This document shows, piece after piece, positions 7,561 through 31,677 of a stretch of 64,000 bases of DNA. Where the stretch lies: positions 248,001 through 312,000 of the forward strand of contig NZ_JAFBCN010000001.1 in assembly GCF_016907755.1 (NCBI RefSeq), given 5' to 3'. The position numbers were made by a program, and so were the translations under genes. The notes under the pieces were generated by a model, which was not told where the DNA came from, did not search any database, and saw nothing but the letters and a program-made list of their open reading frames with translations. This DNA is from Cellulosimicrobium cellulans. GTDB taxonomy: Bacteria > Actinomycetota > Actinomycetes > Actinomycetales > Cellulomonadaceae. Each line of letters starts with the position of its first letter. Position 1 is the stretch's first letter.

Positions 7561-7998
7561 ATGAACATGCTCACCTGGACTGCCGTAGACGACGCGACCT
7601 GGCGTGCCCGCAACGCGTCGCGCGAGTACGTGATCCGGCGCGACGACGCCGACACCTGGACGCTCGACGGCCCCGAACGCACCTGGGTCGCGCTGCCGAA
7701 CCTCGAGGTCGCCAAGGAGGTCGCCGCGCTCGCCGACGAGGTCCACCACGACGACGACAGCATGACCAGCTACCGCGTGGTCACCGCCACGGGCGCACGC
7801 CGCGGGGAGCCGTTCGGCGCGGACAGCGACGAGGACGCGATCGACGTGCTCCGCGCGCGGCGCCGGGCCGGCAACCTCCCGCTCGCGCCGTTCCGGCTCG
7901 AGACGAGCGACGGCCGGCTGGTCGGGTCGTGGGAGAAGGCGGTGGAGATCCCGGCCCGCCCGGCGACGTCGCACGAGGGGACCGCCGGACCCGTCTGA
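7561..7998 (+). CDS. Hypothetical protein, 145 aa
   Basis: A soluble 145-residue protein rich in charged residues and tryptophan near the start (MLTWTAVDDATWRARNAS). No signal peptide, membrane segment or familiar motif is seen. An ATG at 7567 is an alternative start, and neither is preceded by a strong ribosome-binding site. The coding potential is good: GC-rich third positions throughout. It converges with the GntR gene 45 bases away. Function unknown. Confidence 0.6.
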   Translation: MNMLTWTAVDDATWRARNASREYVIRRDDADTWTLDGPERTWVALPNLEVAKEVAALADEVHHDDDSMTSYRVVTATGARRGEPFGADSDEDAIDVLRARRRAGNLPLAPFRLETSDGRLVGSWEKAVEIPARPATSHEGTAGPV

Positions 7999-8042
7999 TC
8001 CCGGCCCGCGACGCACGCCGAGGTCCGCGACGAGCGACCGGC

Positions 8043-8699: not shown

Positions 8700-8845
8700 C
8701 GGTCGATTCTCCCACCGCGCCCGACGCGCGCACGCGGGTGCGGGGGCGCCGCGCGGCCCCGGGCGCGCGCTCGCTCCCCGTGCCGTGGAGAGCGCCCGGC
8801 ATCCGTGCGAGGGTGGAGGGACACGCGTCGAACGAGGGAGTTCCG

Positions 8846-9979: not shown

Positions 9980-10021
9980 AAAGGGCGGGCGCCGACCGGT
10001 CCCGTCTGTGAGGGTGGGCCC

Positions 10022-15818: not shown

Positions 15819-15872
15819 TTTCCACAGCGGCTCACACCAGACGAGCCGACTGCTCGATGAGGAGGATTGCTC

Positions 15873-17162: not shown

Positions 17163-17177
17163 CAGGGCCCGTCAGTC

Positions 17178-18101
17178 ATGACCACCACCACCGAGGGACG
17201 GCGCCGGCGTACGGCCGGCGCCGTCCACCGGCGACGGCAAGCGCTCGTCGCCTGGCTGTTCGCTCTCCCGTTCGTCGCGGTCTTCGCGGTCTTCATGCTG
17301 GGGCCGCTGCTCGCGTCGTTCGGGATGTCGTTCTCGGACCTCACGATCCGTGACATCAAGACGCCGTTCGCGGTGAACTTCGTCGGGCTCGAGAACTTCA
17401 CCGGCGTCTTCCAGGACGAGCTGTTCCGCAAGGCGCTGCTCAACACCTTCTACTTCGTCCTCGTCGGCATCCCGCTGACGATGGTGCTCGGGCTCGCACT
17501 CGCCGTCGCCCTCAACTCGGGCATCGAGAAGTTCCGCAGCGTCTTCCGCGTCGGCTTCTACACGCCCGTCGTGACGTCGATCGTCGCCGTGGCGGTCGTC
17601 TGGCGGTTCATCCTCCAGGACTCCGGCCTCGTCAACACCGTGCTCGGCTGGGTCGGCATCGACGGCCCGGACTGGCTCAACGACAGCGCGACGGCGATGC
17701 CGTCGATCATCGTCATGGCCGCCTGGCGCAACATGGGCACGCTCATGATCATCTTCCTGGCCGGCCTGCAGGCGATCCCGCGCGACGTCTACGAGGCCGC
17801 CGAGGTCGACGGCGCCGGCTCGTGGCGCCGCTTCCGCTCCATCACGGTCCCGCTCATGCGCCCCACCCTGCTGCTCGGCGCGGTGCTGCTGTCCGTCGGC
17901 TTCCTCCAGGTGTTCGAGGAGCCGTTCGTCATGACCAAGGGCGGCCCGGTCAACTCCACGCTGACCATCAGCTACTACGTCTACAACCAGTTCGGCTACG
18001 GCAACTACGCGTTCGCCTCCGCAGCCGCGTACGTGCTCTTCGCGCTGATCGCCGCCCTCGCCGCCGTCCAGTTCCGCCTGCTGCGGTCGAAGGAGGATTG
18101 A
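17178..18101 (+). CDS. Sugar ABC transporter permease (MalF-type)
   Basis: A 307-residue protein with six predicted membrane helices after a basic N-terminus. The EAA loop that docks the ATPase is EAAEVDGAGSWRRFRSITVP (about 207-226). It starts 15 bases after the binding-protein stop with only a weak ribosome-binding site, so it may depend on coupling. It forms the channel with the next permease. Confidence 0.93.
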   Translation: MTTTTEGRRRRTAGAVHRRRQALVAWLFALPFVAVFAVFMLGPLLASFGMSFSDLTIRDIKTPFAVNFVGLENFTGVFQDELFRKALLNTFYFVLVGIPLTMVLGLALAVALNSGIEKFRSVFRVGFYTPVVTSIVAVAVVWRFILQDSGLVNTVLGWVGIDGPDWLNDSATAMPSIIVMAAWRNMGTLMIIFLAGLQAIPRDVYEAAEVDGAGSWRRFRSITVPLMRPTLLLGAVLLSVGFLQVFEEPFVMTKGGPVNSTLTISYYVYNQFGYGNYAFASAAAYVLFALIAALAAVQFRLLRSKED

Positions 18102-18102
18102 C

Positions 18103-18996
18103 ATGACCGTCACGTCCTCGCGGACCACCTCCGCGACGTCGACGCCGGAGGGCGCGCCCCGCCGTCGGCCGCGACGCCCGATCCGCTGGTCGCGCGGCGC
18201 CACCTACACGGCGCTCGTCGTCGGGCTGCTCCTGACCCTCATGCCGTTCATCTGGATGGCCCTCGGCAGCTTCAAGACGCAGGGCGAGCTCCTCCAGCGC
18301 CCCATCACGTGGTGGCCGCAGAACCCCACGCTCGACAACTACGAGCGGTGGCTCTCCCAGCTCAACTACGGGCAGTACTTCACCAACTCGATCGTCGTCG
18401 CGGTCGCCGTGGTGCTCGGCAACATCGTGTTCTGCTCGATGGTCGGCTACGCCCTGGCGAAGATGAGCTTCCCCGGCAAGCGGGTGCTGTTCGCCCTCGT
18501 CATGCTCACGCTCATGGTCCCGGGCGTCGTCACGCTCGTGCCGATGTTCGTGCTCGTGTCCAACATGGGGCTCGTCAACACCTACCCCGCGCTCATCCTG
18601 CCGTTCCTCGCCGGACCGCTCGGCGTGTTCCTCATGCGGCAGTTCATGCTCGGCATCCCCGACGCGCTCATCGAGGCCGCCCGGATCGACGGCGCCGGCG
18701 AGTTCCGCGTCTTCTTCCGGATCGTGCTGCCCCAGTGCGGCCCGCCGCTCGCGACGCTGAGCATCCTCACGTTCCTCGGGTCGTGGAACAACTTCCTGTG
18801 GCCCCTGGTCGTCGCGCAGACCGAGAACATGTACACCCTCCCGGTCGCGCTCTCGCTGTACTCGGTCGGCTCGAACGGAACCTACTACGGCCTCCTCATG
18901 GCCGGTTCCGTGCTCGTCGTGACGCCGATCCTCATCCTGTTCCTGTTCCTGCAGCGCTACTTCGTGCAGGGCATCGCCATGACCGGCATCAAGTGA
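18103..18996 (+). CDS. Sugar ABC transporter permease (MalG-type)
   Basis: A 297-residue, six-helix permease. The basic N-terminus (RRRPRRPIRWSRG) is cytoplasmic; the EAA loop is IEAARIDGAGEFRVFFRIVL. The ATG at 18103 is one base after the previous stop, with its AGGAGG inside that gene's end. Together with the gene before it, it makes the heterodimeric channel. The nearest ATPase partner is not in this cluster. Confidence 0.93.
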   Translation: MTVTSSRTTSATSTPEGAPRRRPRRPIRWSRGATYTALVVGLLLTLMPFIWMALGSFKTQGELLQRPITWWPQNPTLDNYERWLSQLNYGQYFTNSIVVAVAVVLGNIVFCSMVGYALAKMSFPGKRVLFALVMLTLMVPGVVTLVPMFVLVSNMGLVNTYPALILPFLAGPLGVFLMRQFMLGIPDALIEAARIDGAGEFRVFFRIVLPQCGPPLATLSILTFLGSWNNFLWPLVVAQTENMYTLPVALSLYSVGSNGTYYGLLMAGSVLVVTPILILFLFLQRYFVQGIAMTGIK

Positions 18997-19019
18997 CCGG
19001 CGACCGACGAGGAGTACCT

Positions 19020-20189
19020 GTGTCGATCACCTTCCCCGAGTCCTTCGTCTGGGGCGCCTCGACGGCGGCCCACCAGATCGAGGGCAACAACGTCAACAGC
19101 GACTGGTGGGCCCGCGAGGTCGACCCGGCCTCGACGCTCGCCGAGCCGTCGGGTGACGCCGCCGACTCCTACCACCGGTACGCCGAGGACGTCCGGCTGC
19201 TGGCCGAGTCCGGGCTCACCTCCTACCGGTTCTCGATCGAGTGGGCGCGCATCGAGCCCGCCGAGGGTCGCTTCTCGCGCGCCGAGCTCGACCACTACCG
19301 CCGCATGGTGGACTGCTGCCTGGAGCACGGCGTCACGCCGCTCATCACGCTGCACCACTTCACGTCGCCGCGCTGGTTCGCGGAGGACGGCGGCTGGACG
19401 GACCCGCGGTCCGTCGAGCGGTTCGCGCGGTACGTCGAGCACGTGCTGCCGCTGCTCGACCGCGCGTCGCACGTGTTCACCATCAACGAGCCGAACATCC
19501 TCGCGATGATGATCACGGCCGCCAAGGGCGCCGAGCAGCTCCAGGCGGGCACCATGCACGCGCCCGACCCGGTCGCGACCGAGCACCTGATCGCCGCGCA
19601 CCGCCGGGCCGTCGAGCTCGTGCGGACCGTCGGGGTGCCCGTCGGGTGGCCCGTCGCGCCGCAGCAGTTCTTCGCCGACCCGGGCGCCGAGGAGGTCCTG
19701 CGCGAGTACGCCTACCCGCGCGAGACGGTCTTCCTGGAAGCCGCGAAGGGCGACGACTTCATCGCCGTCCAGGCCTACACGCGCACGCGCATCACGGTGG
19801 ACGGCCCGCTGCCCGCCCCGGAGGACTCCGAGAAGACGCTCACCGGGTGGGAGTACTACCCGGCCGCCATCGCGGAGGCCGCGCGCCTCGGGCACGAGAT
19901 CACCGGCCTGCCGGTCCTCGTCTCCGAGAACGGCATCGCGACGGCCGACGACGCGCGGCGCATCGACTACACGCGCGACGCCCTGCGCGCGCTGCACGCC
20001 GAGATGGAGGCGGGCCTCCCGCTGCTCGGCTACCTGCACTGGTCGCTGCTCGACAACTACGAGTGGGGCTCCTTCGCCCCCACCTTCGGGCTCGTCGCCT
20101 GGGACCCGGAGACCTTCGAGCGCACGCCCAAGCCCAGCCTCGCCTGGCTCGGCGGCGTCGCCCGCGGCACCGTCTCGCTCGACGACTGA
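19020..20189 (+). CDS. GH1 family beta-glucosidase
   Basis: A 389-residue cytoplasmic TIM-barrel enzyme; shorter than typical 440-480-residue GH1 members. Motifs: FPESFVWGASTAAHQIEGN at the start, the acid/base Glu in VFTINEPN (about 158), and the nucleophile Glu in PVLVSENGIAT (about 300). YLHWSLLDNYEWGSF near the end is the aglycone-site signature. GTG at 19020 with GAGGAG upstream. It would hydrolyse the imported beta-glucoside or the final disaccharide left by the GH94 phosphorylase. It is the last gene of the importer operon, ahead of a strong terminator. Confidence 0.95.
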   Translation: MSITFPESFVWGASTAAHQIEGNNVNSDWWAREVDPASTLAEPSGDAADSYHRYAEDVRLLAESGLTSYRFSIEWARIEPAEGRFSRAELDHYRRMVDCCLEHGVTPLITLHHFTSPRWFAEDGGWTDPRSVERFARYVEHVLPLLDRASHVFTINEPNILAMMITAAKGAEQLQAGTMHAPDPVATEHLIAAHRRAVELVRTVGVPVGWPVAPQQFFADPGAEEVLREYAYPRETVFLEAAKGDDFIAVQAYTRTRITVDGPLPAPEDSEKTLTGWEYYPAAIAEAARLGHEITGLPVLVSENGIATADDARRIDYTRDALRALHAEMEAGLPLLGYLHWSLLDNYEWGSFAPTFGLVAWDPETFERTPKPSLAWLGGVARGTVSLDD

Positions 20190-20289: not shown

Positions 20290-20937
20290 TCACCCCGCCG
20301 CGCGGGCGTCGGTCTCGAACTGCGCCGCCGCGGCGACGGTGTCCGGGTTCTCCAGCAACGCCGAGCAGAGCGCGGTGGACAGCGTGAAGTCCTCGATCCC
20401 GCGGGCCGCGAGCGCCGCGACCTGGGTCGTGTCGCGCAGGCTCGCGGCGAGCACCCGGCACCCCTGACCAGACGCGCGCAGCGTGGCGTGGAGGTCGACC
20501 GTCTGCTCGACGCCGTCGAGCCCGAGGTCGCCCATCCGCCCCACGTAGGGCGCGACCCAGCCCGCGCCGGCCGCGTCCGCGAGGAGCGCCTGGGACGCGT
20601 GGTAGACGGCCGTGACGAGCACGGGCACCCCCTCGCGCGTCAGCCGGCGGGAGACGGCGAGGCCGTCGCGCGTCGCGGGCAGCTTGACGACGACGTCCGG
20701 CCCCAGGTCGACGAGCTCCCGGCTGTGCGCCTCCAACGCCGCCTCGTCCGGGCCGACGGCCTGGAGGAAGACCGTCCCGGCCCCGGCGGCGCGCGCCCAG
20801 CGGTGGACGGCGGGGACGTCGTCGACCGTGAGCCCCGACCGGTACAGGATCGTCGGGTTCGTGGTGACGCCGGCGAACAGGCCGGTCGCGAGGAGCCGCT
20901 CGACCTGGTCGCGGTCGGCGGAGTCGATGTACAGCAT
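20290..20937 (-). CDS. Transaldolase-like / fructose-6-phosphate aldolase-type protein
   Basis: A 215-residue TIM-barrel protein of the short TalC/MipB group. The N-terminal LYIDSADRDQVERLL and FAGVTTNPTIL are the family signature, and the Schiff-base Lys sits in DVVVKLPATRDG (about residue 87). It would catalyse aldol cleavage or transfer of a dihydroxyacetone unit from a ketose phosphate. It is the final gene of the RbsABC-type sugar operon. The true substrate depends on the sugar made by the kinase and isomerase upstream. Confidence 0.87.
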   Translation of the reverse strand: MLYIDSADRDQVERLLATGLFAGVTTNPTILYRSGLTVDDVPAVHRWARAAGAGTVFLQAVGPDEAALEAHSRELVDLGPDVVVKLPATRDGLAVSRRLTREGVPVLVTAVYHASQALLADAAGAGWVAPYVGRMGDLGLDGVEQTVDLHATLRASGQGCRVLAASLRDTTQVAALAARGIEDFTLSTALCSALLENPDTVAAAAQFETDARAAG

Positions 20938-20977
20938 GCGTTCTCCCTGGTGGTGCGGTCAGGCCGCGGTGGTGCGG

Positions 20978-22453
20978 TCAGGGCGCGGTCGGCCGGGGCC
21001 GGTCCGCGACCGTGGCGAGCAGGTCGTAGTAGGGGGCGTCGATCGTCGCGGGCACGTCGCGGGGCGGGACGGCGTCGAGCACGGCGGGCGCCCACGACGC
21101 GGCGACGTCCACGACGGTGGCGCCCTCGAGGACGGCGACGGCCTGGACGCACGCGCCGCGCGCCGTCGCCTCGGGGGCCGCGCGACGCACGACGGGGCGG
21201 CCGAGGGCGTCGGCGAGGACCTGCCGGTACGCGAGCGACCGGGCACCCCCGCCGTTGACGACGACCTCGCCGGTCGTGTCGACGCCCACGCGCTCGAGCG
21301 CGCGGGCCGCCCCGACGAGGCCGGCCACGACGCCCTCGAACGCGGCCAGCGCGAGGTCTTCCCGGGTGGTCTCGCCGGTGATCCCGCCGAGCACGCCGGT
21401 CGCGCCCGGTCGCCGCGGGGTGCGCTCGCCGTCGAGGTAGGCGACGAGCGTCGGCCGCTCCCCCCGGACGGGGGCGGCGAGGGCGAGGCGCTCCAGGGTC
21501 GCGTGGTCGACGTCGAGGAGCCGTGCGAACGTGTCGGTGACCTTGGCGGCGTTGAGCGTGCACGCGAGGGGCAGGTACCCGCCGGTCGCGTCGCACACGG
21601 AGTCGACCGTGCCGAGCGGGTCGACGACGGACGTGCGGCGCGGGCTGAGGACGACGCCGGAGGTGCCGAGGGAGACCCCGAGGTCGCCCTCGACGAGGCC
21701 GAGCCCGACGGCGGCGAGGTGCTGGTCTCCCCCGCCCGGCCCGACGACGACCCCCGGCCCGAGCCCGAGCTCGGCCGCCACGTCCGGGCGCACGGTCCCG
21801 GCCGGGGTGTCGGGCCCGAGGACGGTCGGGAGGACGTCCTCCCAGCCGACGTCCGGCGAGACGAAGCGGTCCAGGAGCTCGGGCCGCCAGACGCCGCGGT
21901 GCACGTCGAGGTAGCCGGTCCCGGCGGCGTCGGACCGGTCGGTGACCGTCGACCCGGTGAGCCGGTAGGTGAGGTAGTCGTGCGGCACGAGGACGTGCGC
22001 GACGCGCACGAGGAGCGCGGGGTCGGTCTCCGCCACGTGCGCGAGCTTCATGATCGTCAGGGCGGACGACGGCGCCATGCCGACGTCGCGCATCCACGGC
22101 TCGAGCCCGTACTCCTCGGCGATCCGCGCCGCCGCGGGGCCCGCCGTCGTGTCGTTCCACAGCGGCGCGGGAGCCAGGGGCTCGCCGCTCCGATCCAGCA
22201 GCACGAGCCCGTGGCACTGCGCGCCGACGGCGAGCGCGACGACCTGCGTCGGGTCGGCGTCGGCGTCGCGCAAGGCGCCCGAGAACGCCGCCCGGAACGC
22301 GGCCCACCAGTCCCGCGGGTCCTGCCGGCTGACGGGCGGTGCGGTCCGGGGGTGAGGCGCGGAGGCGGTCCCGACGAGCGCGCCGTCGTCCCGGCGGCGC
22401 AGCTCGACGGTGCAGGACTGGGTCGACGAGTCGACCCCTGCGACAAGGTCCAT
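20978..22453 (-). CDS. FGGY-family carbohydrate kinase (xylulokinase-like)
   Basis: A 491-residue cytoplasmic kinase with two RNase H-fold domains. The N-terminal phosphate loop is VAGVDSSTQSCTVEL; WNDTTAGPAA and GYLDVHRGVW lie in the sugar-binding lobe; the catalytic base is the Asp of GPGGGDQHLAAVG. The C-terminal ATP-site loop is EVVVNGGGARS. It phosphorylates a pentulose or related polyol with ATP. ATG at 22453, two bases after the SIS gene stop. Sequence resembles D-xylulose kinases, but the operon has no xylose isomerase, so the substrate may differ. Confidence 0.9.
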   Translation of the reverse strand: MDLVAGVDSSTQSCTVELRRRDDGALVGTASAPHPRTAPPVSRQDPRDWWAAFRAAFSGALRDADADPTQVVALAVGAQCHGLVLLDRSGEPLAPAPLWNDTTAGPAAARIAEEYGLEPWMRDVGMAPSSALTIMKLAHVAETDPALLVRVAHVLVPHDYLTYRLTGSTVTDRSDAAGTGYLDVHRGVWRPELLDRFVSPDVGWEDVLPTVLGPDTPAGTVRPDVAAELGLGPGVVVGPGGGDQHLAAVGLGLVEGDLGVSLGTSGVVLSPRRTSVVDPLGTVDSVCDATGGYLPLACTLNAAKVTDTFARLLDVDHATLERLALAAPVRGERPTLVAYLDGERTPRRPGATGVLGGITGETTREDLALAAFEGVVAGLVGAARALERVGVDTTGEVVVNGGGARSLAYRQVLADALGRPVVRRAAPEATARGACVQAVAVLEGATVVDVAASWAPAVLDAVPPRDVPATIDAPYYDLLATVADRPRPTAP

Positions 22454-22455
22454 GG

Positions 22456-23115
22456 CTACTTCCAGTAGGGCTCGAGGGGCGGCAGCTCCTGGGGCGCCTC
22501 GTCGATCTTGCCGACGGCCCCCGACGGGTGCGAGTGCAGGACGTTCGCCCACGAGTACCCGCGCATCCGCATGAGGACCACGGCGAGCGCGTCGCCCCAC
22601 GCTGCCGTCACGAGGGTAGATCCCATCGCGATGACCTCGCCGGGGTCGATCCCGGGGATCATCGTCAGCTCGACCACGACGTCCGCGTTCCGCGCGAGGC
22701 GCGAGGAGGCGTCCGCCGTGACCGCGACGACGGTGTCGACGCCGCGCTCCTTGGCGCGCACGACCAGGTCGTTGATCTCGTCGCTCCCGCCCCCGCGGGA
22801 GATCGCGACGAGGATGTCGCCCGGGGCCATCGCGCCCATCGTGCCGTGCAGCGCGTCCGCGCCGGAGATGAACACCGACGGGGTGCCGGACACGGAGAGC
22901 AGGTGCGCCATGCGGCGCGCGACCGCGCCGGACGTGCCCGCCCCGGTGACGAAGACCTTGCCCGTGCACTCGTACACCCGCTGGACCACGTCCAGGAACA
23001 CGTCGCCCAGGTCGGTCACGCTCGCCGCGACCCCCTGCGCCTCGTGCGCGACGACGGCCCGGGCGGTCTCGAGCACGGCGGCACGGCGTCGCGTCGTGGT
23101 GTCGGGGATGGTCAT
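22456..23115 (-). CDS. SIS-domain sugar-phosphate isomerase (6-phospho-3-hexuloisomerase-like)
   Basis: A 219-residue single-SIS-domain protein. KVFVTGAGTSGAVARRMAHL is the phosphosugar-binding loop, and ILVAISRGGGSDEINDLVVR is the second SIS signature. No CBS domains follow, unlike KdsD or GutQ. These proteins interconvert aldose and ketose phosphates, e.g. arabinose 5-phosphate or 3-hexulose 6-phosphate. The start is the ATG at 23115, 32 bases after the ATPase stop, with AGGAGTACCC upstream. Its role depends on the sugar taken up by the importer. Confidence 0.88.
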   Translation of the reverse strand: MTIPDTTTRRRAAVLETARAVVAHEAQGVAASVTDLGDVFLDVVQRVYECTGKVFVTGAGTSGAVARRMAHLLSVSGTPSVFISGADALHGTMGAMAPGDILVAISRGGGSDEINDLVVRAKERGVDTVVAVTADASSRLARNADVVVELTMIPGIDPGEVIAMGSTLVTAAWGDALAVVLMRMRGYSWANVLHSHPSGAVGKIDEAPQELPPLEPYWK

Positions 23116-23147
23116 GGGTACTCCTCGTCCAGGGGTTCTCGGTGAGG

Positions 23148-24707
23148 TCACGCGGCGCTCCAGGCCGCGTGCCGCAGGTCCACGGAGGACAGGTCGCCGG
23201 CCGCGACGACGTCGCCGTCGCACCGGCCCTCCGTGAGGGTGACGACGTCGTCCGCCAGCTCGAGGATCTCCTCCTCCTCGCTGGACACGACGACGACCGT
23301 GAGCCCGTCGTCGTGCGCGAGCGAGCGCAGGAGCCGGTGGATCTCGGTCTTCACGCCGATGTCGACGCCCTTGGTGGGCTCGTCGAGCAGCAGCACGCGC
23401 GGCGCCTGCGCCAGGACGCGGGCGAGGAGCACCTTCTGCTGGTTGCCGCCGGACAGGCGCTCGACGGGGCCCTCGCGGTCCCCGCGGACCTGCATGCGGT
23501 CCATGAGGGCCGCCGCCTCGCGGCGCATCCGTCGCTTGTCGAGCAGGCCGAGCCGCCGGTACCGGTCGAGGACCGGGAGGACGACGTTCGTCGTCGCGTC
23601 CAGCCCGCCGACGATGCCGTCGACCTTGCGCTCCTCGGTGAGGTAGACGAGACCGCGCCGCTGGGCCTCGGCGGGGGTCGCGGGCCGGTACGGCGCGCCG
23701 TCGAGCTCGATGCTCCCGGCCAGGACCCTGTCGAGGCCGACGAGCGTGCGCAGCAGCTCCGTGCGGCCGGCGCCGATGAGCCCGTAGACCCCCAGCACGC
23801 GGCCGGGATGGGCCGTGAGGCTGACGTCGGCGAGCGCGGGCGTGCGCAGGTTCCGCACCACGAGCGACGGGCGGGCGCCCGCGTCGAGCGGGACGACGTC
23901 GGTGCGGTGCGCCGCCTCCGTGACGCCACCCGTCGAGGCGACGGCCTCGTCCCCGGCGATCGCGTGGACGACCGCCTGCCGGTCGACCGTGCCGGCCGGG
24001 CCGGCGATGCGGACCTCGCCGTCGACGAGCGCGACGACGTGGTCGGCGACGGCGTACAGCTCGTCGAGCTTGTGGTCGACGAGCAGGATCCCCAGGCCCT
24101 CGGTGCGGGCCAGGTCGCGCACGGTCTCGAGGAAGCGCTCGACCTGCCCGCCCTCGAGGCTCGTCGTCGGCTCGTCGAGCAGCAGGTAGCGCGCGTCGCG
24201 CGCCACGGCCACCGCGATCTCGAGGAGCTGGCGGGTCGCGACGGGGTAGGCGCCGAGCTTGCGGTCGACGTCCACCGCGAGGCCGAACCGGTCCGCGAGC
24301 GCGCGGGACTGGTCGCGCATGGCGCGGCGGTCGAGCGCTCCCCCGCGCGTCAGCTCACGACCGAGGAACACGTTCTGCGTGACCGTGAGGTTCGGCAGGA
24401 GCGACAGCTCCTGGTAGACGGTCGAGATCCCCGCGTCGAGCGCGGCGGTCGGGGAGCCCTGGGGCAGCGCGTGGCCGTCCACGGACACCGTGCCCTCGTC
24501 GGCGGGGTGCGCCCCCGCGAGGACGCGGAGCAGCGTCGACTTGCCGGCGCCGTTGTGCCCGACGAGCCCGGTGACGGTGCCCGCCGCGAGCGTCAGGTCG
24601 ATGCCCTTGAGCACCCGCACGTGCGAGAAGCTCTTGACGATCCCGCTGGCCCGCAGGGCGCCGCCCTCGGCGGCGCCCCGCGGGACCGACGTCGTGACGT
24701 CGGTCAT
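23148..24707 (-). CDS. Sugar ABC transporter ATP-binding protein (RbsA/XylG type)
   Basis: A 519-residue peripheral membrane ATPase with two ABC domains. Domain 1 has Walker A GHNGAGKSTLLR and Walker B RYLLLDEPTT. Its signature loop before Walker B is degenerate (ATRQLLEIAVAVA). Domain 2 lacks a canonical Walker A (GLIGAGRTELLR) but has an intact signature (LSGGNQQKVLLARVL) and Walker B (VLLLDEPTKGVD). This asymmetry is normal for RbsA-type proteins. ATG at 24707, one base after the binding-protein stop. It energises import with the permease at 25740-26744. Confidence 0.95.
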   Translation of the reverse strand: MTDVTTSVPRGAAEGGALRASGIVKSFSHVRVLKGIDLTLAAGTVTGLVGHNGAGKSTLLRVLAGAHPADEGTVSVDGHALPQGSPTAALDAGISTVYQELSLLPNLTVTQNVFLGRELTRGGALDRRAMRDQSRALADRFGLAVDVDRKLGAYPVATRQLLEIAVAVARDARYLLLDEPTTSLEGGQVERFLETVRDLARTEGLGILLVDHKLDELYAVADHVVALVDGEVRIAGPAGTVDRQAVVHAIAGDEAVASTGGVTEAAHRTDVVPLDAGARPSLVVRNLRTPALADVSLTAHPGRVLGVYGLIGAGRTELLRTLVGLDRVLAGSIELDGAPYRPATPAEAQRRGLVYLTEERKVDGIVGGLDATTNVVLPVLDRYRRLGLLDKRRMRREAAALMDRMQVRGDREGPVERLSGGNQQKVLLARVLAQAPRVLLLDEPTKGVDIGVKTEIHRLLRSLAHDDGLTVVVVSSEEEEILELADDVVTLTEGRCDGDVVAAGDLSSVDLRHAAWSAA

Positions 24708-24708
24708 G

Positions 24709-25713
24709 TCAGCCGACCTCCCCCGGCGCGGGGGTCTCGCCGACGGTGAACGCCTTGAGCGGCAGGAGGATCTCCGGCTCGACGTCCTCGCCGTCGACGT
24801 ACGCGCGGATCTGCTCGGTCACCTGGGTGCCGTAGCTCTCCGGCTCCTGCGCGACGCAGCCGCGGTACACCTCGGTGAGCGGCTCCTCGGAGGCGCAGAA
24901 CCCGTAGAGCGCGACGTCGGTGCGGTTGCCCAGGGCCTGCAGCGCGCCGTAGACGGCGGGGCCGGTCGAGGCCCAGATGACGTTGATGTCCTGGTTGCCC
25001 TGGAGCATCTCGCCGGTGACGCGCAGCGAGTCGTCGGGCTTGACGTTGCCGTCGACCTTGGCGACGACCTCGGCGTTCGGGTTGGCCGACACCGCGTCGG
25101 TGAAGCCCTCGTCGCGGATGACGACCGGGCGCTCGTCGGGCTCGGTGATGAAGCCGATGCTCAGCGCGGCGTCGGCGCCGAGGTCCTCGAGGACCTTCTC
25201 GCCCATCGCGCGACCGCCCGCCTCGTTGTCCGCGCCGAGGTACTGGACGATCGTCGCCCCCTGGGCGGCGAGCGCGTCCTCGTCCACGATGACGTTCACG
25301 GTGAAGACGGGCACGCCGGCGTCGTTCGCCGCCTTGACGATCCCGGCGGCGGGCTCCGACTTCACGGGGTTCAGCGCGAGCGCGCACGGGTCCTTCTGCA
25401 GCATGGCCTCGACCTGGGCGAGCTGCTGGGCGTCGTCGTCGTTCGCGACCTGGACCTCGACGTCGAACCCGTTGGCGGCTCCGCCGTCCTCGAAGCCCTG
25501 CTTCATGGCCACGTAGTACGGGTTGGTGAGGTTCGGCAGGCTGACCGCGACGTACGGGTTCTCCCCGTCGCAGGACGCGGGCAGCGTGGTCTCGGCCTGG
25601 TCGGTCGAGCCGCTCCCGCTCGTGTCGCCGGTGCCGGTGTCGACGGCGGAGCAGGCGCCCGCGAGGGCGAGGGCGGTCACGGCGAGGGCCGAGACGATGA
25701 TCTTGCGTCGCAT
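24709..25713 (-). CDS. Sugar ABC transporter substrate-binding lipoprotein (RbsB-like)
   Basis: A 334-residue periplasmic-binding-protein-like lipoprotein. Signal RRKIIVSALAVTALALAGAC ends in a lipobox. The mature protein has a Ser/Thr/Gly linker, then VAVSLPNLTNPYYVAMKQGF and VTGEMLQGNQDINVIWAST, typical of the family that binds monosaccharides such as ribose or xylose. Two cysteines near residues 49 and 112 may form a disulfide. It sits between permease and ATPase in the operon. Confidence 0.93.
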   Translation of the reverse strand: MRRKIIVSALAVTALALAGACSAVDTGTGDTSGSGSTDQAETTLPASCDGENPYVAVSLPNLTNPYYVAMKQGFEDGGAANGFDVEVQVANDDDAQQLAQVEAMLQKDPCALALNPVKSEPAAGIVKAANDAGVPVFTVNVIVDEDALAAQGATIVQYLGADNEAGGRAMGEKVLEDLGADAALSIGFITEPDERPVVIRDEGFTDAVSANPNAEVVAKVDGNVKPDDSLRVTGEMLQGNQDINVIWASTGPAVYGALQALGNRTDVALYGFCASEEPLTEVYRGCVAQEPESYGTQVTEQIRAYVDGEDVEPEILLPLKAFTVGETPAPGEVG

Positions 25714-25739
25714 GAGTACTCTCCTTCGAGCGGTGGGGG

Positions 25740-26744
25740 TCAGGACGTGGCGCGCGAGGCGCGCCGTGGTTGCAGGAGCTGGAGGAAGAGGCGACCCTTC
25801 CCTCCGGTGGTCGAGAGCGAGCGGCGGTAGGTGTCGAGGCTGACGCCGGCGAGGATGATCACGCCGATGACGAGCGGCTGCCAGAAGCTGTCGACGCCGA
25901 CGACGTTCATGCCGTTCGAGACGGTCGCGATGAGCACCGCGCCGAGCAGCGCGCCGCCGATCGAGCCGACCCCGCCGAACAGGCTCACCCCGCCGACCAC
26001 CGCGGCGGCGATCGAGTAGAAGAGCTCGTTGCCCGAGCCGGCGGACGGGTACCCGACCATGAGGCGCGAGGTCGTCACGACGCCGGCGAGCGCGGCGCAC
26101 AGGCCGGAGACCGCGTAGACGAAGAGGGTCGTGCGCCCGGTGTGGATGCCCGCGAGGCGCGCCGTCTCCTTGTTGCCGCCGAGCGCGTAGATGTGGACGC
26201 CCGTGCTGGTGCGCGCCAGGAGGACGCTGAAGACGACGGCGACGAGCGCCACGATGAGGATCGGCGTCGGGATGCCGAAGACCCCGCCGCGCCCGAGGAA
26301 GGCGAACATCGGGTCGCGCACCGTGACCGACGCCGCGCCCGTGAGGATCATGGGGATGCTGCCGGCGATGCCGAACATCGAGAACGTCGCGATGAACGGG
26401 GGCAGGCGCAGGTAGTGCACGAAGATCCCGTTGACGAGGCCGACCGCGACGCCGACGACGAGCGCGAGGACCGTGGCGGCCCACCAGGGCAGCCCCGCCT
26501 GCATCCCGAGCGCCGCGGCCATGCCCGTCAGGGCGAGGTTGGACCCCGTCGAGAGGTCGATGCCACCGGTGAGCAGCACGAAGGTCTGGCCCAGCGCGAG
26601 CAGCGCCACCACGGCACCGTTCAGCAGCAGGACCTCGAAGTTCCCGGCGGTGCGGAAGTTCGGGGACAGCAGACTCATCACCACCACCACGAGGACCAAG
26701 ATCCCCGCGATCCCGACCTCGTCGGGGACGCGTCGTCGCGACAT
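25740..26744 (-). CDS. Sugar ABC transporter permease (RbsC-like)
   Basis: A 334-residue permease with about ten helices. LTGGIDLSTGSNLALTGM is the conserved binding-site helix of RbsC proteins, and IYALGGNKETARLAGIHTGR is the cytoplasmic loop that contacts the ATPase. Start ATG at 26744, with AAGGAGG at 26763 down to 26757 on the minus strand. It is the first gene of the six-gene catabolic operon. The palindrome at 26766-26781 starts 22 bp upstream, so a bound repressor would block transcription. Confidence 0.94.
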   Translation of the reverse strand: MSRRRVPDEVGIAGILVLVVVVMSLLSPNFRTAGNFEVLLLNGAVVALLALGQTFVLLTGGIDLSTGSNLALTGMAAALGMQAGLPWWAATVLALVVGVAVGLVNGIFVHYLRLPPFIATFSMFGIAGSIPMILTGAASVTVRDPMFAFLGRGGVFGIPTPILIVALVAVVFSVLLARTSTGVHIYALGGNKETARLAGIHTGRTTLFVYAVSGLCAALAGVVTTSRLMVGYPSAGSGNELFYSIAAAVVGGVSLFGGVGSIGGALLGAVLIATVSNGMNVVGVDSFWQPLVIGVIILAGVSLDTYRRSLSTTGGKGRLFLQLLQPRRASRATS

Positions 26745-26765
26745 GTACTTCTCGCCTCCTTGCGG

Positions 26766-26883
26766 GTGCTCATATGAGCACGCGATTGCTCGTATGTCGA
26801 TAGTATGGACACCGCGAGGCCACAAGCAACGCGCCTCGATCACAGATCGGTAACACATGCGCAGACGAGCGCTCAGATGAGCA
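26766..26883. promoter_or_regulatory. Three related palindromes, candidate SorC operators
   Basis: In the 142-bp divergent region a perfect 16-bp palindrome, GTGCTCATATGAGCAC, lies at 26766-26781. A degraded copy TGCTCGTATGTCGA follows at 26787-26800, exactly 20 bp centre to centre. A third copy, CGCTCAGATGAGCA, is at 26870-26883, three bases before the SorC start codon. Consensus TGCTCAnATGAGCA. The first two sit on the permease side and the third on the regulator side, which suggests control of both arms and autoregulation. Binding by the adjacent SorC protein is inferred. Confidence 0.7.
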
Positions 26884-26886
26884 AGA

Positions 26887-27846
26887 ATGGGTGACATGAC
26901 GGACTTCTCGCGCCACGAGCTCGCACACGTGGCCCGCCGCTACTACGTGGACTCGGCCTCCAAGGTCGAGATCGGCGAGGAGCTCGGCGTCTCACGGTTC
27001 AAGGTCGCGCGGATGCTCGAGCAGGCGCTCGAGGCCGGGATCGTGACCATCACCATCGACGACGCCGGCGTCGTCGACCCGGCCCTCTCCGCGCGTCTGC
27101 GCTCGCACCTCGGCCTGGACGAGTGCCTCGTGGTCCAGGGCCGCGACACCGTGTCCGAGCTGCGCGAAGACGTCGGCGCGGCCGCCGCCGAGCTGCTCAC
27201 CCGGTCCCTGCGCCCGGGGAACACCCTCGGCTTCGCCTGGGGGCGGACGCTCACCGCCATGACGGAGCGCCTCACCGCGCTGCCGCCCGTCACGGTCGTC
27301 CAGCTCACGGGCGCGGTCGGCTCCGACCTCTCCGACTCGCCCGTCGAGGTGATCCGCCGCGTCTCCCTGCGCGCCGGCGGCGACGCGCACGCGATCTTCG
27401 CGCCGCTGGTCGTCGAGGACGCCGCGACCGCGGCCACGCTGCGCCGCCAGCCCGACATCGCCCGTGCGCTCTCGCTCTTCGACCGGGTCGACGTCGCGGT
27501 CGTCGCGATCGGGTCGTGGGACCCGCCGATCTCCCAGCTCCGCGAGGTCCTCGGGCGCGACGAGCGGGACGACCTCACCGCACGCGGCGTCCGCGCCGAG
27601 ATCGCGGGCATCCTCCTCACCGCCGAGGGCGACCTCGTCCCCGACTTCGCCGAGCGGTGCCTCTCGATCTCCGCGCGCCAGCTCGCCCGCGTGCCCAAGG
27701 TGATCGCCGTCGCCGCCGAGCACGAGAAGGCGGCCGCCGTCCACGCCGTCACCCGGTCCGGCCTCGTCTCCGCCCTCGTCACCGAGCAGCGGTGCGCCGA
27801 GGCCCTGCTCGACCTCCCGCCCGTCGCGCGCGGCACCGACCGATGA
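26887..27846 (+). CDS. SorC-family sugar-binding transcriptional regulator
   Basis: A 319-residue regulator. The N-terminal helix-turn-helix is HVARRYYVDSASKVEIGEEL then GVSRFKVARMLEQALEAGIV. The remaining 250 residues form the NagB/RpiA-like sugar-phosphate-binding domain: LGFAWGRTLTAMTERL, VVQLTGAVGS and VAVVAIGSWD. An ATG at 26896 is an alternative start. It is divergent from the importer operon and overlaps the epimerase gene by 4 bp. SorC proteins usually sense a phosphorylated intermediate of the pathway they control. Confidence 0.92.
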   Translation: MGDMTDFSRHELAHVARRYYVDSASKVEIGEELGVSRFKVARMLEQALEAGIVTITIDDAGVVDPALSARLRSHLGLDECLVVQGRDTVSELREDVGAAAAELLTRSLRPGNTLGFAWGRTLTAMTERLTALPPVTVVQLTGAVGSDLSDSPVEVIRRVSLRAGGDAHAIFAPLVVEDAATAATLRRQPDIARALSLFDRVDVAVVAIGSWDPPISQLREVLGRDERDDLTARGVRAEIAGILLTAEGDLVPDFAERCLSISARQLARVPKVIAVAAEHEKAAAVHAVTRSGLVSALVTEQRCAEALLDLPPVARGTDR

Positions 27847-28505
27847 GCGCGCCCCGCACCCGGGTCGCCGCGTCGTTCTGGTCCACGCCGCGCGACCGCG
27901 TCGCCGCGGAGGCCGACCGGCTCGCGCGCGCCGGGCTCCGCACCGTCCACTGGGACCGCACCGACGGGCGCTACGCCGCGGCAGGCGGTTTTGACGCCGC
28001 GGAGGCGGCGGCCGTGACCGCCGGCAGCGGGCTGGCCGCCGAGGCGCACCTCATGGTCGAGGAGCCGCTCGGTGAGGTCGACCGCTGGACCGACTTCTGC
28101 GAGCTCGTCGTCGTCCACGCGGGGACGCGCGACTGGCGCGCCGCGCTCGACCGCGTCCGCGCCCGGGGCGCGCGTGCCGGCGTCGCGCTCTCGCCCGGCG
28201 TCGGGGTGCCGGAGGTCGAGCCCGGGACGGACGTCCTCGTCATGTCGATCACCCCCGGCCACGCCGGCTCGACGTTCCAGGTCGACGCGCTCGCCACGGT
28301 CGGGCAGGTTGCCGGCCCGGGTCACGCCGTCGGTCTGGACGGCGGCGTCACGCGCTCGATCGTCCCGCAGGCGCTCCGCGCCGGGGCCACGTGGCTCGTG
28401 TCCGGGACGGACCTCGTCGCGAGCGAGGACCCGCACGGCTGGCTCGCGGCGGCGCGCGCCACGGGGGTCGCTCCGCGGCGCGACGGAGACGAGGGAGCCG
28501 GATGA
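27843..28505 (+). CDS. Ribulose-phosphate 3-epimerase-like protein
   Basis: A 220-residue TIM-barrel protein related to Rpe/AlsE. EAHLMVEEPL carries the metal-site His equivalent, VLVMSITPGHAGSTFQ corresponds to the Rpe loop usually reading MSVNPGFGGQ, and GLDGGVTRSIV is the phosphate-binding segment. It is divergent from housekeeping Rpe in the central loop, so it likely acts on another ketose phosphate. ATG at 27843 overlaps the sorC stop; its own stop overlaps lacI. This tight coupling ties it to the sugar operon across the divergent region. Confidence 0.82.
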   Translation: MSAPRTRVAASFWSTPRDRVAAEADRLARAGLRTVHWDRTDGRYAAAGGFDAAEAAAVTAGSGLAAEAHLMVEEPLGEVDRWTDFCELVVVHAGTRDWRAALDRVRARGARAGVALSPGVGVPEVEPGTDVLVMSITPGHAGSTFQVDALATVGQVAGPGHAVGLDGGVTRSIVPQALRAGATWLVSGTDLVASEDPHGWLAAARATGVAPRRDGDEGAG

Positions 28506-29518
28506 GCACCGCGCAGCCCGGTGGGCGGAGCGTCCCGCTCGCCGCCGTCGCGGCCGACGCCGGGGTGTCGGTCCCGACGGTGTCGAAGGTGCTCAACGCA
28601 CGGCCCGACGTCTCGGCCGCGACGCGCGAGCGTGTCGCCGCGGTCCTGCGGCGCCACGGCTACGAGATCCGGCCTCCCACTCCCCGGCGGACGGGACTCG
28701 TGGACGTCCGCATCGTCGACTTCGAGGGTCCGTGGTCCGAGGCGGTGGTGCGCGGCGCGGTCGCCGAGGCGCGACGCCTGGGCCTCGACGTCGTGCTGTC
28801 CGTGGAGCTGGACCCCGACGACTGCGGCGCGTGGGTCCGGCACGCTCTGACCCGGGGCACCGACGGGCTCGTGAGCGTCGTCGCGGTCCCCGACGCCGAG
28901 GCGCGCGCGACGCTCGCGGCGGCCGGGGTGCCGCTCGTCGTCGTCGACCCGCGACGGCGCCCGCCCGAGGACGTGCTCAGCGTGGGCGCCGCGAACTTCC
29001 AGGGGGCGCTCGAGGCGACCGCGCACCTGCTGGCGCTCGGGCACCGGCGCATCGCGACGATCACCGGCGTCCCGGAGCAGGACAACGCGATCGCGCGGCT
29101 CGCCGGGTACCGCGCCGCGATGATCCAGGCGGGCGTGCCCGTCGACGACGACCTGGTCTGCCTGAGCACGTACGGCGTCCCCGCGGGCTACGAGGGGACG
29201 CAGCGCCTGCTCGCCCGCGACGACCCCCCGACCGCGATCTTCGCGTGCAGCGACGACACGGCGCTCGGCGCGCTGCGGGCGCTGCGCGAGGCGGGGCGGT
29301 CCGTGCCGGGCGACGTCTCGCTCGTCGGGTTCGACGACCTCCCCGTCGCGCCCTGGACCGACCCGCCGCTCACCACCGTCCGCCAGCCGCTCGTCGAGAT
29401 GGGCGCGTCGGCCGTCGGGCTCGTGCACCGCGCGCGCACCGCGAGCGGGCACACGCTGCGCACCGAGCTCGCGACGAGCCTCGTCGTCCGCGAGTCCACC
29501 GCTCCCCCGCGGTCGTGA
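28502..29518 (+). CDS. LacI-family transcriptional regulator
   Basis: A 338-residue repressor. The helix-turn-helix and hinge are AADAGVSVPTVSKVLNARPD with RRHGYEIRPP (residues 10-60). The periplasmic-binding-protein-like domain follows: LALGHRRIATITGVPEQDNA, IFACSDDTALGALRALREAG, LVGFDDLPVAPWTDPPLTTV. The ATG at 28502 overlaps the epimerase stop. Possible targets are its own operon or the convergent GH144-like gene, which has a perfect palindrome upstream. A second sugar regulator behind SorC suggests the locus integrates two signals. Confidence 0.92.
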   Translation: MSTAQPGGRSVPLAAVAADAGVSVPTVSKVLNARPDVSAATRERVAAVLRRHGYEIRPPTPRRTGLVDVRIVDFEGPWSEAVVRGAVAEARRLGLDVVLSVELDPDDCGAWVRHALTRGTDGLVSVVAVPDAEARATLAAAGVPLVVVDPRRRPPEDVLSVGAANFQGALEATAHLLALGHRRIATITGVPEQDNAIARLAGYRAAMIQAGVPVDDDLVCLSTYGVPAGYEGTQRLLARDDPPTAIFACSDDTALGALRALREAGRSVPGDVSLVGFDDLPVAPWTDPPLTTVRQPLVEMGASAVGLVHRARTASGHTLRTELATSLVVRESTAPPRS

Positions 29519-29748: not shown

Positions 29749-31677
29749 TCAGCCGCAGGAGACGCCCGCGTAGCGGTAGGACAGCTCCTGGGTCGTCGAC
29801 CCGTCGTCGGACGTGACCGTCACCGTCGCGGCGCCGGACGGGATCTCCGCCGTGCGCGCCGCGAACGACTGGTAGGTGCTGCGGTGCGGGACGACGTCGT
29901 CGAACGACCGCGACCCGTAGGGCGTGGCGAGCGCGACGTCCGCGCGGCCGTCCCCCGTGCTCGTCGCCCGGACGGCGACGGCCGCCCGGTGGCCGAGGCA
30001 GCGCGCCTGGACCTGGACGTCGGCGCCCACGCCGGGCGTGAGGTCGGCCGTGGCCGAGAACGTCTCCGCCTCCATGAGCGGCCGCAGGCGCTGCTCGAGC
30101 TCGTCGTCGACGAAGTAGTCCTTGAGGCGCGAGTCGTCGAGGACGTTGCCGATCGCGGCGACGATCATCGCCTGGTCGAGCGACAGGTAGCGCTCGGCGA
30201 CCGTGCCCGACCGCACGGCGACGGAGTCGTAGAAACCGCCCGGCCCGTAGGCGCCGAGGTCGTCGGCGAGGTGGGCCAGGTTGTCGAGCACGCCGTCCGT
30301 GTCGTACGCGAGGCCGAGGAACGACGCGTGCGGCGTCACGACGCCGTCGCCGAACTCCGGCGCGGGGTTGGTCGCCTCGCGGCAGCCGTCGAACCCGAGG
30401 TCGACGTCGGTCTCACCGTCGGACAGGTAGCCGTCCGAGCGCAGCCCGATCGCGTCGACGCCGTACTCCGCGTACCCGCCGAAGGGGTTGCTCGCGGGCG
30501 AGAAGCCCCAGGCCCCGTAACCCGCCTCGTCGAGCCCGTGCTCCTTGTGCGCGCGCACGACGAGCGGGTGGTTGACGCCCCACGACGCCGGACCCCACTC
30601 CGCCTCGGGCACCAGCATGTCCGGCATGAGCGCCTCGAACATCGAGCCGCCCCAGCCCGGCACGACCGCGAGGTCGCGGTACCGGTACGCGCCCTCGAAG
30701 ACCGGGACGCCCAGGTGCTCGCGCGTCTCGCCGATCGGCTTCTGCTCCTGCCACGACCAGTCGCACGTGTCCGGGAACGTCCGGTGGCTCGCGTAGTACG
30801 CCTCCGGAGGCACCTCGCCCTCCGCGATGCCGAGGTACGTCGCGATGCGCGTCTCCGAGACCGTCGTGTCGTAGTGGTGGCACGTGTAGAACACGTCCGT
30901 GCCCGTGCCGAGGTAGTCGCCCGCGACCGAGCAGCCGGGCGGCTCCTCGTCCCAGAACCCGCCGCGCAGCAGCCCGACGCCGAGGTCCGGACGCGCGTCC
31001 GGGTTGTAGAAGGCGCCGAAGTGCATGTCGTCGTAGATCGCGCGCGCCTCGTCCGCGAGGCGCGGCTCCGCCTCCGCGACGACGCGCAGGCCCGCGGCCA
31101 GCCAGCCGTTGTCCACCGAGCTGAGGAACTGGTGGACGACGTCGCCGCTGTCCGGCCACGTCTCGACCCGGTCGCCGGTCGCGGGGTCGTACCAGTTGTA
31201 GAACATCCCGCTCGCGTCGTGCCGGTCGAGCGACGCGACGGTGTCGAGCGTCGTCGCGAGGCGGTCGTGGGCCTCGTCGGCGTCGACCAGGCCCAGGTCG
31301 CGGGCCACGACGGTGGACCAGAGCCAGCCGCCGATGTTCGTCGGCGACGTGTACGCGCTGCTCGACGCCGGGTCCAGGTTGCCCTCGATGTTGTCCGCGG
31401 GCAGGCCGGTCCCCTCGTCCGTCATGGCCTCCAACGAGGTGTACGTGTCCTCCAGGTACGTCTCCAGCGTCGCGCGCTGCGCGCCGGTCAGGCCGTCGGG
31501 CCCGACGCCGGGCGTCGCCTTCGCGGGGACGCTCCCCGCCGCCGGGACGCTCTCCGCCGCAGCGGGTGCGGCGAGGCCGGCGGCCAGGGCCAGCCCGCCG
31601 ACGAGTCCGCTCGCGACGAGCGCGGCTCCGCGGTGGCGGTGCACGCCGCTCCGCGCGGTCGTGGTCGTTCCATCCAT
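29749..31677 (-). CDS. Secreted GH144-like (glycoamylase domain) glycoside hydrolase with C-terminal module
   Basis: A 642-residue secreted enzyme. Signal peptide residues 1-41 (ALVASGLVGGLALAAGLAAP). The catalytic (alpha/alpha)6 domain spans about 60-545, with motifs TSPTNIGGWLWSTVVARDLG, GMFYNWYDP, SSVDNGWLAAGL and GGSMFEALMPDMLVPE. These fit the 'glycoamylase' family that includes GH144 endo-beta-1,2-glucanases. The last 90 residues, VQARCLGHRAAVAVRA to YAGVSCG, match the DUF1080 protein's tail. ATG at 31677 with GAAGGAG upstream. It could release beta-1,2-gluco-oligosaccharides for the GH94/GH1/ABC locus 10-18 kb away; this link is inference. Confidence 0.78.
   Translation of the reverse strand: MDGTTTTARSGVHRHRGAALVASGLVGGLALAAGLAAPAAAESVPAAGSVPAKATPGVGPDGLTGAQRATLETYLEDTYTSLEAMTDEGTGLPADNIEGNLDPASSSAYTSPTNIGGWLWSTVVARDLGLVDADEAHDRLATTLDTVASLDRHDASGMFYNWYDPATGDRVETWPDSGDVVHQFLSSVDNGWLAAGLRVVAEAEPRLADEARAIYDDMHFGAFYNPDARPDLGVGLLRGGFWDEEPPGCSVAGDYLGTGTDVFYTCHHYDTTVSETRIATYLGIAEGEVPPEAYYASHRTFPDTCDWSWQEQKPIGETREHLGVPVFEGAYRYRDLAVVPGWGGSMFEALMPDMLVPEAEWGPASWGVNHPLVVRAHKEHGLDEAGYGAWGFSPASNPFGGYAEYGVDAIGLRSDGYLSDGETDVDLGFDGCREATNPAPEFGDGVVTPHASFLGLAYDTDGVLDNLAHLADDLGAYGPGGFYDSVAVRSGTVAERYLSLDQAMIVAAIGNVLDDSRLKDYFVDDELEQRLRPLMEAETFSATADLTPGVGADVQVQARCLGHRAAVAVRATSTGDGRADVALATPYGSRSFDDVVPHRSTYQSFAARTAEIPSGAATVTVTSDDGSTTQELSYRYAGVSCG

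Follow-up and report, generated by a model that had tools for sequence, protein, structure and literature searches.

The window analysed here is a stretch of 64,000 nucleotides from the 4.79 Mb genome of Cellulosimicrobium cellulans (contig NZ_JAFBCN010000001.1, positions 248,001 to 312,000), and its positions 20290–29518 carry a nine-gene sugar-breakdown cluster (Table 1). A CUT2 ATP-binding cassette (ABC) importer, an FGGY kinase and a KpsF-like SIS isomerase are found together in this one cluster, accompanied by an FSA-type aldolase, an Rpe-like epimerase, whose gene overlaps the SorC stop codon, and SorC and LacI regulators. All nine genes named in a first-pass annotation of this DNA were found in place, each open. 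The NCBIfam matches listed (for the importer ATPase, the best 25 of 195) are all under their curated cut-offs, so that xylulokinase, arabinose-5-phosphate isomerase, FSA and Rpe are to be read as family names and not as tested functions.

Table 1. Genes and proposed operator sites of the cluster, in window coordinates.
Feature	Position	Strand	Basis
FSA-type class I aldolase, 215 aa	20290..20937	-	Pfam TAL_FSA 117.9 bits; TIGR00875 145.4 bits, cut-off 245.95
FGGY kinase, XylB-like clade; proposed pentulose 5-kinase	20978..22453	-	XylB TIGR01312 372.2 bits, cut-off 380.25
Single-domain SIS sugar-phosphate isomerase	22456..23115	-	KpsF/GutQ family 117 bits, under cut-off
CUT2 (RbsA-type) importer ATPase	23148..24707	-	family matches
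CUT2 sugar-binding lipoprotein	24709..25713	-	Peripla_BP_4 133.1 bits
CUT2 (RbsC-type) permease	25740..26744	-	family matches
Perfect palindrome GTGCTCATATGAGCAC; proposed operator for SorC, ahead of the importer operon	26766..26781		kept in 18/18 loci tested
Second operator copy CGCTCAGATGAGCA, directly before the SorC gene	26870..26883		one mismatch to TGCTCANNTGAGCA
SorC/DeoR-type regulator, putative sugar-binding domain	26887..27846	+	Pfam Sugar-bind 187 bits
Rpe-like phosphoketose 3-epimerase, divergent clade	27843..28505	+	PF00834 70.4 bits; TIGR01163 72.5 bits, cut-off 212.6
LacI-family regulator	28502..29518	+	family match; overlaps the Rpe-like stop

The gene set is conserved in actinobacteria and is not due to chance. 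A profile of five Rpe-like proteins retrieved 23 loci from the species-genome collection, and these and two more were aligned (loci and genomes carry our labels L and G). All eight core genes are present in one order in 15 of the 25 loci: aldolase, kinase, SIS, ATPase, binding protein and permease, with SorC and the Rpe-like gene divergent from them. Five of the 15 (L029–L033) are close Cellulosimicrobium-like copies, and six of the ten incomplete loci are interrupted by contig ends. L038 lacks only the FSA gene at the cluster, the one weaker FSA match of its genome (144.6 bits) lying on contig C15. L008 and L049 keep the aldolase, kinase, SIS, SorC and epimerase genes with another CUT2 importer and an added zinc dehydrogenase, whose best match in L049 is L-idonate 5-dehydrogenase (226.7 bits, under the cut-off); for the binding protein of that locus the nearest PDB entries are 4yo7, 4rs3, 5hko and 4rsm, which we take to be polyol or inositol binders. 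The Spongiactinospora cluster (L034, 5951–10609) has neither binding protein nor permease, its ATPase lacks the first half and the kinase match is split in two; the cluster may be decaying there. The closest matches to the Rpe-like protein of the window come from Cellulosimicrobium or Cellulosimicrobium-like genomes (87–95%). At E ≤ 1e-20 its clade was found in five genomes, its own being one of them, among the 297 of the order; with a profile, 17 of 396 genomes across the phylum matched at E ≤ 1e-30, all but the own protein scoring 107–116 bits vs 320. A search of plasmids with the epimerase gave no match, and a PADLOC scan returned nothing useful or distant cousins only.

The permease/SorC gap holds the proposed operator. 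The pattern TGCTCANNTGAGCA, with up to two mismatches, is found there in all 18 regions tested and in two copies in 16 of them, compared with a mean of 0.2 and a maximum of two regions in 200 mononucleotide shuffles. The 18 regions are the window and 17 loci, with L029, L031 and the variant loci left out; four of the 18, the window among them, are near copies of one another from Cellulosimicrobium-like genomes. Two matches within the window alone are not unusual (1.35 expected), and support for the operator therefore comes from its conservation and position. An exact search covered 14 genomes, including four Cellulosimicrobium-like near copies, and yielded ten palindromic sites in nine genomes; nine of these sites are at the cluster; the tenth lies elsewhere, on contig C73 of G685, the FSA gene of which is on C7. 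The reversed pattern gave no sites in these 14 genomes. Elsewhere the palindrome is exact in L094 and has one or two mismatches in L008, L049, L096 and L097. In L094 exact sites also stand before one dehydrogenase (14011) and at 1746. The SorC regulator of the first-pass annotation is supported; breakdown of autoinducer-2 was rejected as its context, the protein scoring 112 bits vs 486 for LsrR and no LsrF/LsrG-like gene being present in the cluster by Pfam.

The same module occurs with a different front end. A search for the SIS protein in the 297 genomes of the order gave 19 matches at E ≤ 1e-45, and the 11 best (E ≤ 2.4e-64) were examined. In all 11 an FGGY kinase and SorC lie beside SIS, six kinases being of the window type and five of the ribulokinase family, and in ten FSA is in the same cluster, about 8 kb or less from SIS. 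Nine of the 11 genomes were searched for FSA at E ≤ 1e-10 and eight carry exactly one, at the cluster. The FSA of the window shares 68% identity with that of G212, which belongs to a ribulokinase-family cluster, against 48–58% with those of the window-type clusters compared. Two of the five ribulokinase-family kinases exceed (L-)ribulokinase NCBIfam cut-offs and the other three are 57–91% identical to one of them; the binding proteins are 70–97% identical among four of the five clusters. The palindrome precedes the regulator or the kinase in these clusters, exactly in L090–L093 (4/4) and with one mismatch in L095; in L092 a further site with a single mismatch directly precedes FSA. A common operator and SorC suggest a common inducer, probably a phosphorylated intermediate. 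As SorC, SIS, FSA and the operator are common to the ribulokinase-family clusters, the shared lower pathway probably starts from a pentulose 5-phosphate.

The distribution of Rpe genes follows the kinases in part. Nine genomes were searched and each has one strong Rpe. A second Rpe-family gene is at the cluster in the four XylB-type genomes (G000, G220, G256 and G120), while none is found anywhere in four ribulokinase-family genomes (G225, G137, G131 and G232), all of which carry FSA; G212, also of the ribulokinase family, carries a second Rpe. A second Rpe mainly with a XylB-type kinase fits a need for epimerization only from xylulose 5-phosphate, although the numbers are small. The G120 cluster (L094, 5362–15711) has two zinc dehydrogenases, an SDR and a very divergent Rpe-family gene in a genome without FSA. 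Four of the eight weaker SIS matches in the order (L098–L101) are 49–50% identical to KdsD and have no FGGY kinase or FSA match; these KdsD-like genes of actinobacteria lie near 7800–8700 of each locus.

The SIS protein of the window scores 112–118 bits against KdsD/GutQ-type models with cut-offs of 203.7–505. It retains His88, Glu111, Asp172 and His193 of KdsD; His88, Glu111 and His193, which we take to be catalytic, are kept in 24 of 24 rows. Its AlphaFold2 model (mean pLDDT 90.4) is nearest to the arabinose-5-phosphate isomerases 5uqi (Z = 25.4, 1.5 Å, 187 aligned) and 2xhz (Z = 24.9, 1.4 Å, 173), along with 3fxa (Z = 24.8, 2.0 Å, 190) and 3etn (Z = 24.3, 2.0 Å, 186), the next being 1vim (Z = 21.2, 2.7 Å, 180). 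No match to KDO-8-phosphate synthase was found in the genome of the window, so that arabinose 5-phosphate would be formed without an evident KDO role. Across 396 genomes of the phylum, SIS matched in 11 at E ≤ 1e-40, one of them its own, and the contexts of six of the other ten (L066–L071) were viewed. The SIS proteins of L066, L067 and L071 are nearer to KdsD than to the window SIS; in L068 SIS adjoins an FGGY kinase 23% like that of the window; and in L069 and L070 a distant SIS adjoins an Rpe-family gene, an FGGY kinase (26%) lying 3–4 kb away in L070. We count the SIS/Rpe-family adjacency in favour of the route proposed below. These neighbours are in low-GC genomes (L069, 9124–10399; L070, 3195–8495), and no FSA match was found in the six contexts.

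The aldolase of the window matches FsaA at each of the 13 positions compared, including Gln59, Lys85, Tyr131, Arg134 and Ser166. Lys85 and the hallmarks Gln59 and Tyr131 are present in 19 of 19 FSA rows. Across the 13 positions these rows show departures only in L096 (N28T, L163V) and Listeria (L163M). We assume that Gln59 and Tyr131 discriminate FSA from transaldolase. The earlier description of a transaldolase-like aldolase is corrected to an FSA-type one, and a plain transaldolase is rejected, Gln59 and Tyr131 standing in place of the transaldolase residues. This aldolase family also has another setting: in L131 and L132 the neighbours of the FSA gene are a sugar ABC importer and a gene resembling mannitol 2-dehydrogenase.

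By sequence and predicted fold the epimerase is nearer to Rpe than to AlsE: it scores 72.5 bits with Rpe TIGR01163 and 34.1 bits with the AlsE model (cut-off 271), and the first 15 fold rows for its AlphaFold2 model (mean pLDDT 92.5) are all Rpe (Z = 27.5–29.7, 1.7–2.7 Å), compared with Z = 25.6 (2.3 Å, 200) for AlsE 3ct7; the Rpe-titled entry 3cu2 has Z = 22.4. His36, Asp38, His69 and Asp166, presumably the metal ligands, are invariant (19/19). The first-pass call of a divergent Rpe-like protein holds, with metal ligands intact and a changed pocket, and the loop MSITPGHAGS was read correctly; it belongs to a clade-wide form, M(S/A)(I/V)xPGxAG (22/22 clade rows). The binding protein scores 91 bits with the RbsB model (cut-off 337). 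At the 16 RbsB positions compared, which we take to be ligand contacts, six residues are identical, two are Tyr for Phe and eight differ, the alignment near positions 89–90 being uncertain; Ser9, Phe164, Asn190 and Asp215 are replaced in 12 of 12 proteins, and Asn13, Asn64, Asp89, Arg141, Phe214 and Gln235 are kept. With the score under the cut-off and half of the positions changed, ribose uptake is disfavoured and, on this comparison of sequences, so is plain ribose as the substrate.

On the observed gene content and its conservation, the family and fold assignments, the catalytic residues, the operator and the SorC–SIS–FSA–operator module of the ribulokinase-family clusters, we build the following route, inferring its substrates and reactions throughout, to which we give a probability of about 0.4. 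The importer would take up a free pentulose, D-xylulose, D-ribulose or a close relative, and the FGGY kinase would convert it to the pentulose 5-phosphate. The Rpe-like epimerase would give D-ribulose 5-phosphate, SIS would isomerize this to D-arabinose 5-phosphate, and the FSA-type aldolase would split the latter into glycolaldehyde and glyceraldehyde 3-phosphate. SorC, probably sensing a phosphorylated intermediate, would control both divergent units through the paired TGCTCANNTGAGCA operators. That the substrate is at the level of a pentulose is the more secure part and is probable. The uncharacterized ketose pathway of the first-pass annotation is supported, as is a rare pentulose among its suggested substrates; a tetritol or hexulose is less favoured.

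A known reaction of KpsF-type SIS proteins on a pentulose 5-phosphate converts ribulose 5-phosphate to arabinose 5-phosphate, which is also an FsaA substrate, so that both assignments meet at one compound. Passages of one report describe cleavage of arabinose 5-phosphate to glycolaldehyde and glyceraldehyde 3-phosphate by Escherichia coli FsaA (KM 0.65 mM, kcat 3.6 per s), cite a higher specificity of FsaA for arabinose 5-phosphate than for fructose 6-phosphate, and have KdsD, FsaA and AldA operating in series in vitro; the kdsD–fsaA–aldA (glycoptimus) route is there termed non-natural (PMC6900487). In excerpts of two other reports the same steps are used or proposed in the assembly direction (PMC9947464, PMC6298115). 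The open-licence literature searched gave no description of a natural route of arabinose-5-phosphate cleavage or of this cluster.

The statement of the first-pass annotation that the gene set matches no pathway was too strong, since a named relative is the D-ribulose locus of Citrobacter rodentium, rblABCD-rblK-rblI, described in passages of PMC12307932, in which rblI encodes a KpsF-like SIS protein. What Rbl and the window have in common is a single operon that joins a KpsF-like SIS, an FGGY kinase and a CUT2 ABC importer. The Rbl layout recurs in plasmid-borne loci of Pantoea and Duffyella, and the Pantoea SIS has the GTSG motif and the same Thr replacement (see below) as the window SIS, to which it is 39% identical over 155 residues. 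However, the window kinase is XylB-like (24% identical to that of Pantoea), its binding protein is RbsB-type (22%) with one permease, and neither is thus of the Rbl or AauA/RblA type; FSA, the Rpe-like protein and SorC are additions. The binding proteins of the ribulokinase-family clusters are only 37% identical to that of Pantoea; a search with one of these proteins gave 5bra as best match (218 bits) and then AauA, PDB entry 9I1M (168.8 bits). AauA is a D-ribulose binder, and AraB of EHEC, an L-ribulokinase, phosphorylates D-ribulose, according to the parts of PMC12307932 drawn on here.

Other systems are alike in part. A polyol phosphotransferase system (PTS) cluster of Listeria innocua (L053, 5051–13806) has SIS (33% identical, and closely resembling PDB entry 3fxa), FSA, two Rpe-family genes and RpiB, but the PTS and a polyol-phosphate dehydrogenase replace the ABC importer and kinase; it may represent this lower pathway in a form for pentitols. 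Rhizobium sp. L51/94 (L052) has SorC, SIS, a kinase, an importer and an Rpe-family gene, with a one-mismatch operator site between SorC and SIS that falls outside the preset region and within the whole-locus list. For its plasmid FGGY kinase (12612–14077) the annotation gives two coding sequences that overlap, and no single frame is open throughout. The E. coli D-allose operon likewise combines a CUT2 importer, a kinase and an Rpe-family 3-epimerase; however, the AlsE model matches only weakly (34.1 bits), no SIS or FSA is present in the part of the operon seen, and AlsK presumably belongs to another kinase family. The glycoptimus and Ara5P-dependent GAA pathways use a SIS-type isomerase and FSA as an arabinose-5-phosphate aldolase, GAA also using Rpe, but these are engineered from E. 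coli genes as presented in the passages concerned (PMC6900487, PMC9947464), whereas the window set is natural and has no linked glycolaldehyde dehydrogenase that we could find.

Several results weigh against the proposed split at arabinose 5-phosphate. Thr replaces KdsD Lys59 in 24 of 24 SIS rows outside KdsD/GutQ, and one branch (100/99) of the tree, at which long branches meet, separates 22 Thr59 rows from five Lys59 rows. Another branch (97/97) separates the Pantoea/Duffyella, Listeria and L095 rows from the group of the window, which therefore appears to be a cousin of RblI, orthology being unsupported by the tree. The kinase and epimerase pockets also depart from those of their namesakes. 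Cys or Ala77, Thr100 and Gln234 are present in 15 of 15 cluster kinases and in L094 (Cys77 in the window) at positions presumed to line the XylB pocket, where E. coli XylB has Met77, Arg100 and Asn234; taken together with the second L049 kinase, E. coli XylB gives Met or Gln77, Arg100 and Asn234, and the XylB of the genome itself, by eye, reads GQQHG, NDTR and GDN at the compared sites. In the epimerase clade Trp replaces Phe35, Thr, Ser or Ala replaces Met38 and Gly replaces Leu46 in 22 of 22 rows, as the VPNL loop of Rpe is replaced in all 22; the Rpe-family proteins of L052, L095 and Listeria retain Met38. The substrate may therefore not be xylulose. For the ribulose-type front ends, 5bra, annotated 'with substrate ribose', outscores AauA, the scored families are named L-ribulokinase or ribulokinase and not the D-ribulokinase of Rbl, and the Pantoea kinase is only 27–28% identical to the actinobacterial ribulokinase-family kinases. 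As to the aldolase, the G120 genome is without FSA (E ≤ 1e-10) although SIS and the kinase are present, and no AldA match was found in the window or the other cluster stretches searched. FSA is present in 27 of the 297 genomes of the order (E ≤ 1e-45), 18 of these 27 without SIS at E ≤ 1e-45. Among ten such SIS-less loci viewed, two have a neighbour that we would call mannitol-dehydrogenase-like and in a third such a gene lies at a distance of about 6 kb; four have a XylB-like FGGY kinase (31–38% identical to that of the window) 3–6 kb off; and L124 and L130 pair FSA divergently with SorC (41–42% identity; 7689–9350 and 8384–10071, respectively). An operator-like palindrome, CGCTCAGTTGAGCG, lies between FSA and SorC in L130, and no such site lies there in L124. 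As FSA, FSA–SorC pairs and the operator occur without SIS, they do not by themselves point to arabinose 5-phosphate.

Some of these points would be accommodated by ordinary pentulose salvage, in which the kinase would make xylulose or ribulose 5-phosphate, the two being linked by the Rpe-like enzyme, and carbon would enter the pentose phosphate pathway and SIS and FSA would have side roles. Passages of PMC12307932 state that Rbl in C. rodentium requires importer and kinase and that deletion of rblI causes no D-ribulose growth defect, which also speaks against the proposed split; the Pantoea and Duffyella loci show SIS with no FSA in the listed stretches, and in L069 and L070 the partner of SIS is an Rpe-family gene, FSA giving no match there. 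We consider salvage rather unlikely, however, because FSA is kept in ten of the 11 SIS clusters of the order, with an operator copy before it in L092, and because a dedicated Rpe-like copy would seem idle beside the housekeeping Rpe.

The altered pockets are also compatible with a different sugar. A rare hexose could pass as allulose 6-phosphate or a similar 6-phosphate, made by the kinase, through an AlsE-like step to fructose 6-phosphate, the textbook FSA substrate, to be cleaved to dihydroxyacetone and glyceraldehyde 3-phosphate, with SIS serving the matching aldose phosphate. FSA elsewhere in the order does lie within polyol/hexulose-like loci, but AlsE ranks below Rpe by sequence and fold and the SIS–FSA–SorC–operator module is common to the ribulokinase-family clusters, which makes this explanation unlikely. 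All 15 cluster kinases and all 22 clade epimerases compared carry the pocket changes, and this consistency would also be explained by a less usual ketose, such as a tetrulose, 1-deoxyketose, heptulose, L-sugar or branched sugar; nothing positive was found for any such sugar and the shared module points to a pentulose phosphate, and we regard a substrate of this kind as improbable.

What E. coli FsaA does physiologically is, according to passages of PMC6900487, not yet clear, and the pairing of SIS with FSA under a conserved operator makes this question directly testable. If the split at arabinose 5-phosphate is true, it would provide a physiological role for FSA-family aldolases and for this type of SIS, a further way, beside transketolase and phosphoketolase, of breaking five-carbon sugar phosphates, and a source of enzymes for glycolate or ethylene-glycol work on pentoses. 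It would also give the synthetic glycoptimus route a counterpart in nature, combined with an Rbl-like D-ribulose locus, as these are described in the parts of PMC6900487 and PMC12307932 used here; such a pentulose split is so far not known to us outside engineered strains. The broader proposal, in which a pentulose would be split naturally at D-arabinose 5-phosphate without transketolase or phosphoketolase and one type of SorC regulon would serve xylulose- and ribulose-type front ends, is put forward somewhat more tentatively than the route itself.

The surroundings of the core are less conserved. The LacI regulator listed in the first-pass annotation is present, but an ortholog was found only in L029–L033 among the 25 aligned loci; it is rejected as a core member and regarded as an addition specific to Cellulosimicrobium-like loci. 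By eye, no other gene recurs across genera in the flanks of the 16 listed loci. The neighbouring GH1/MalEFG genes, not kept in other genera, are likewise rejected as part of the system. Among the genera listed, the MalEFG-type importer with its GH1-like gene (window 15867–20189) and a large secreted protein (29749–31677) flank the Cellulosimicrobium-like loci only.

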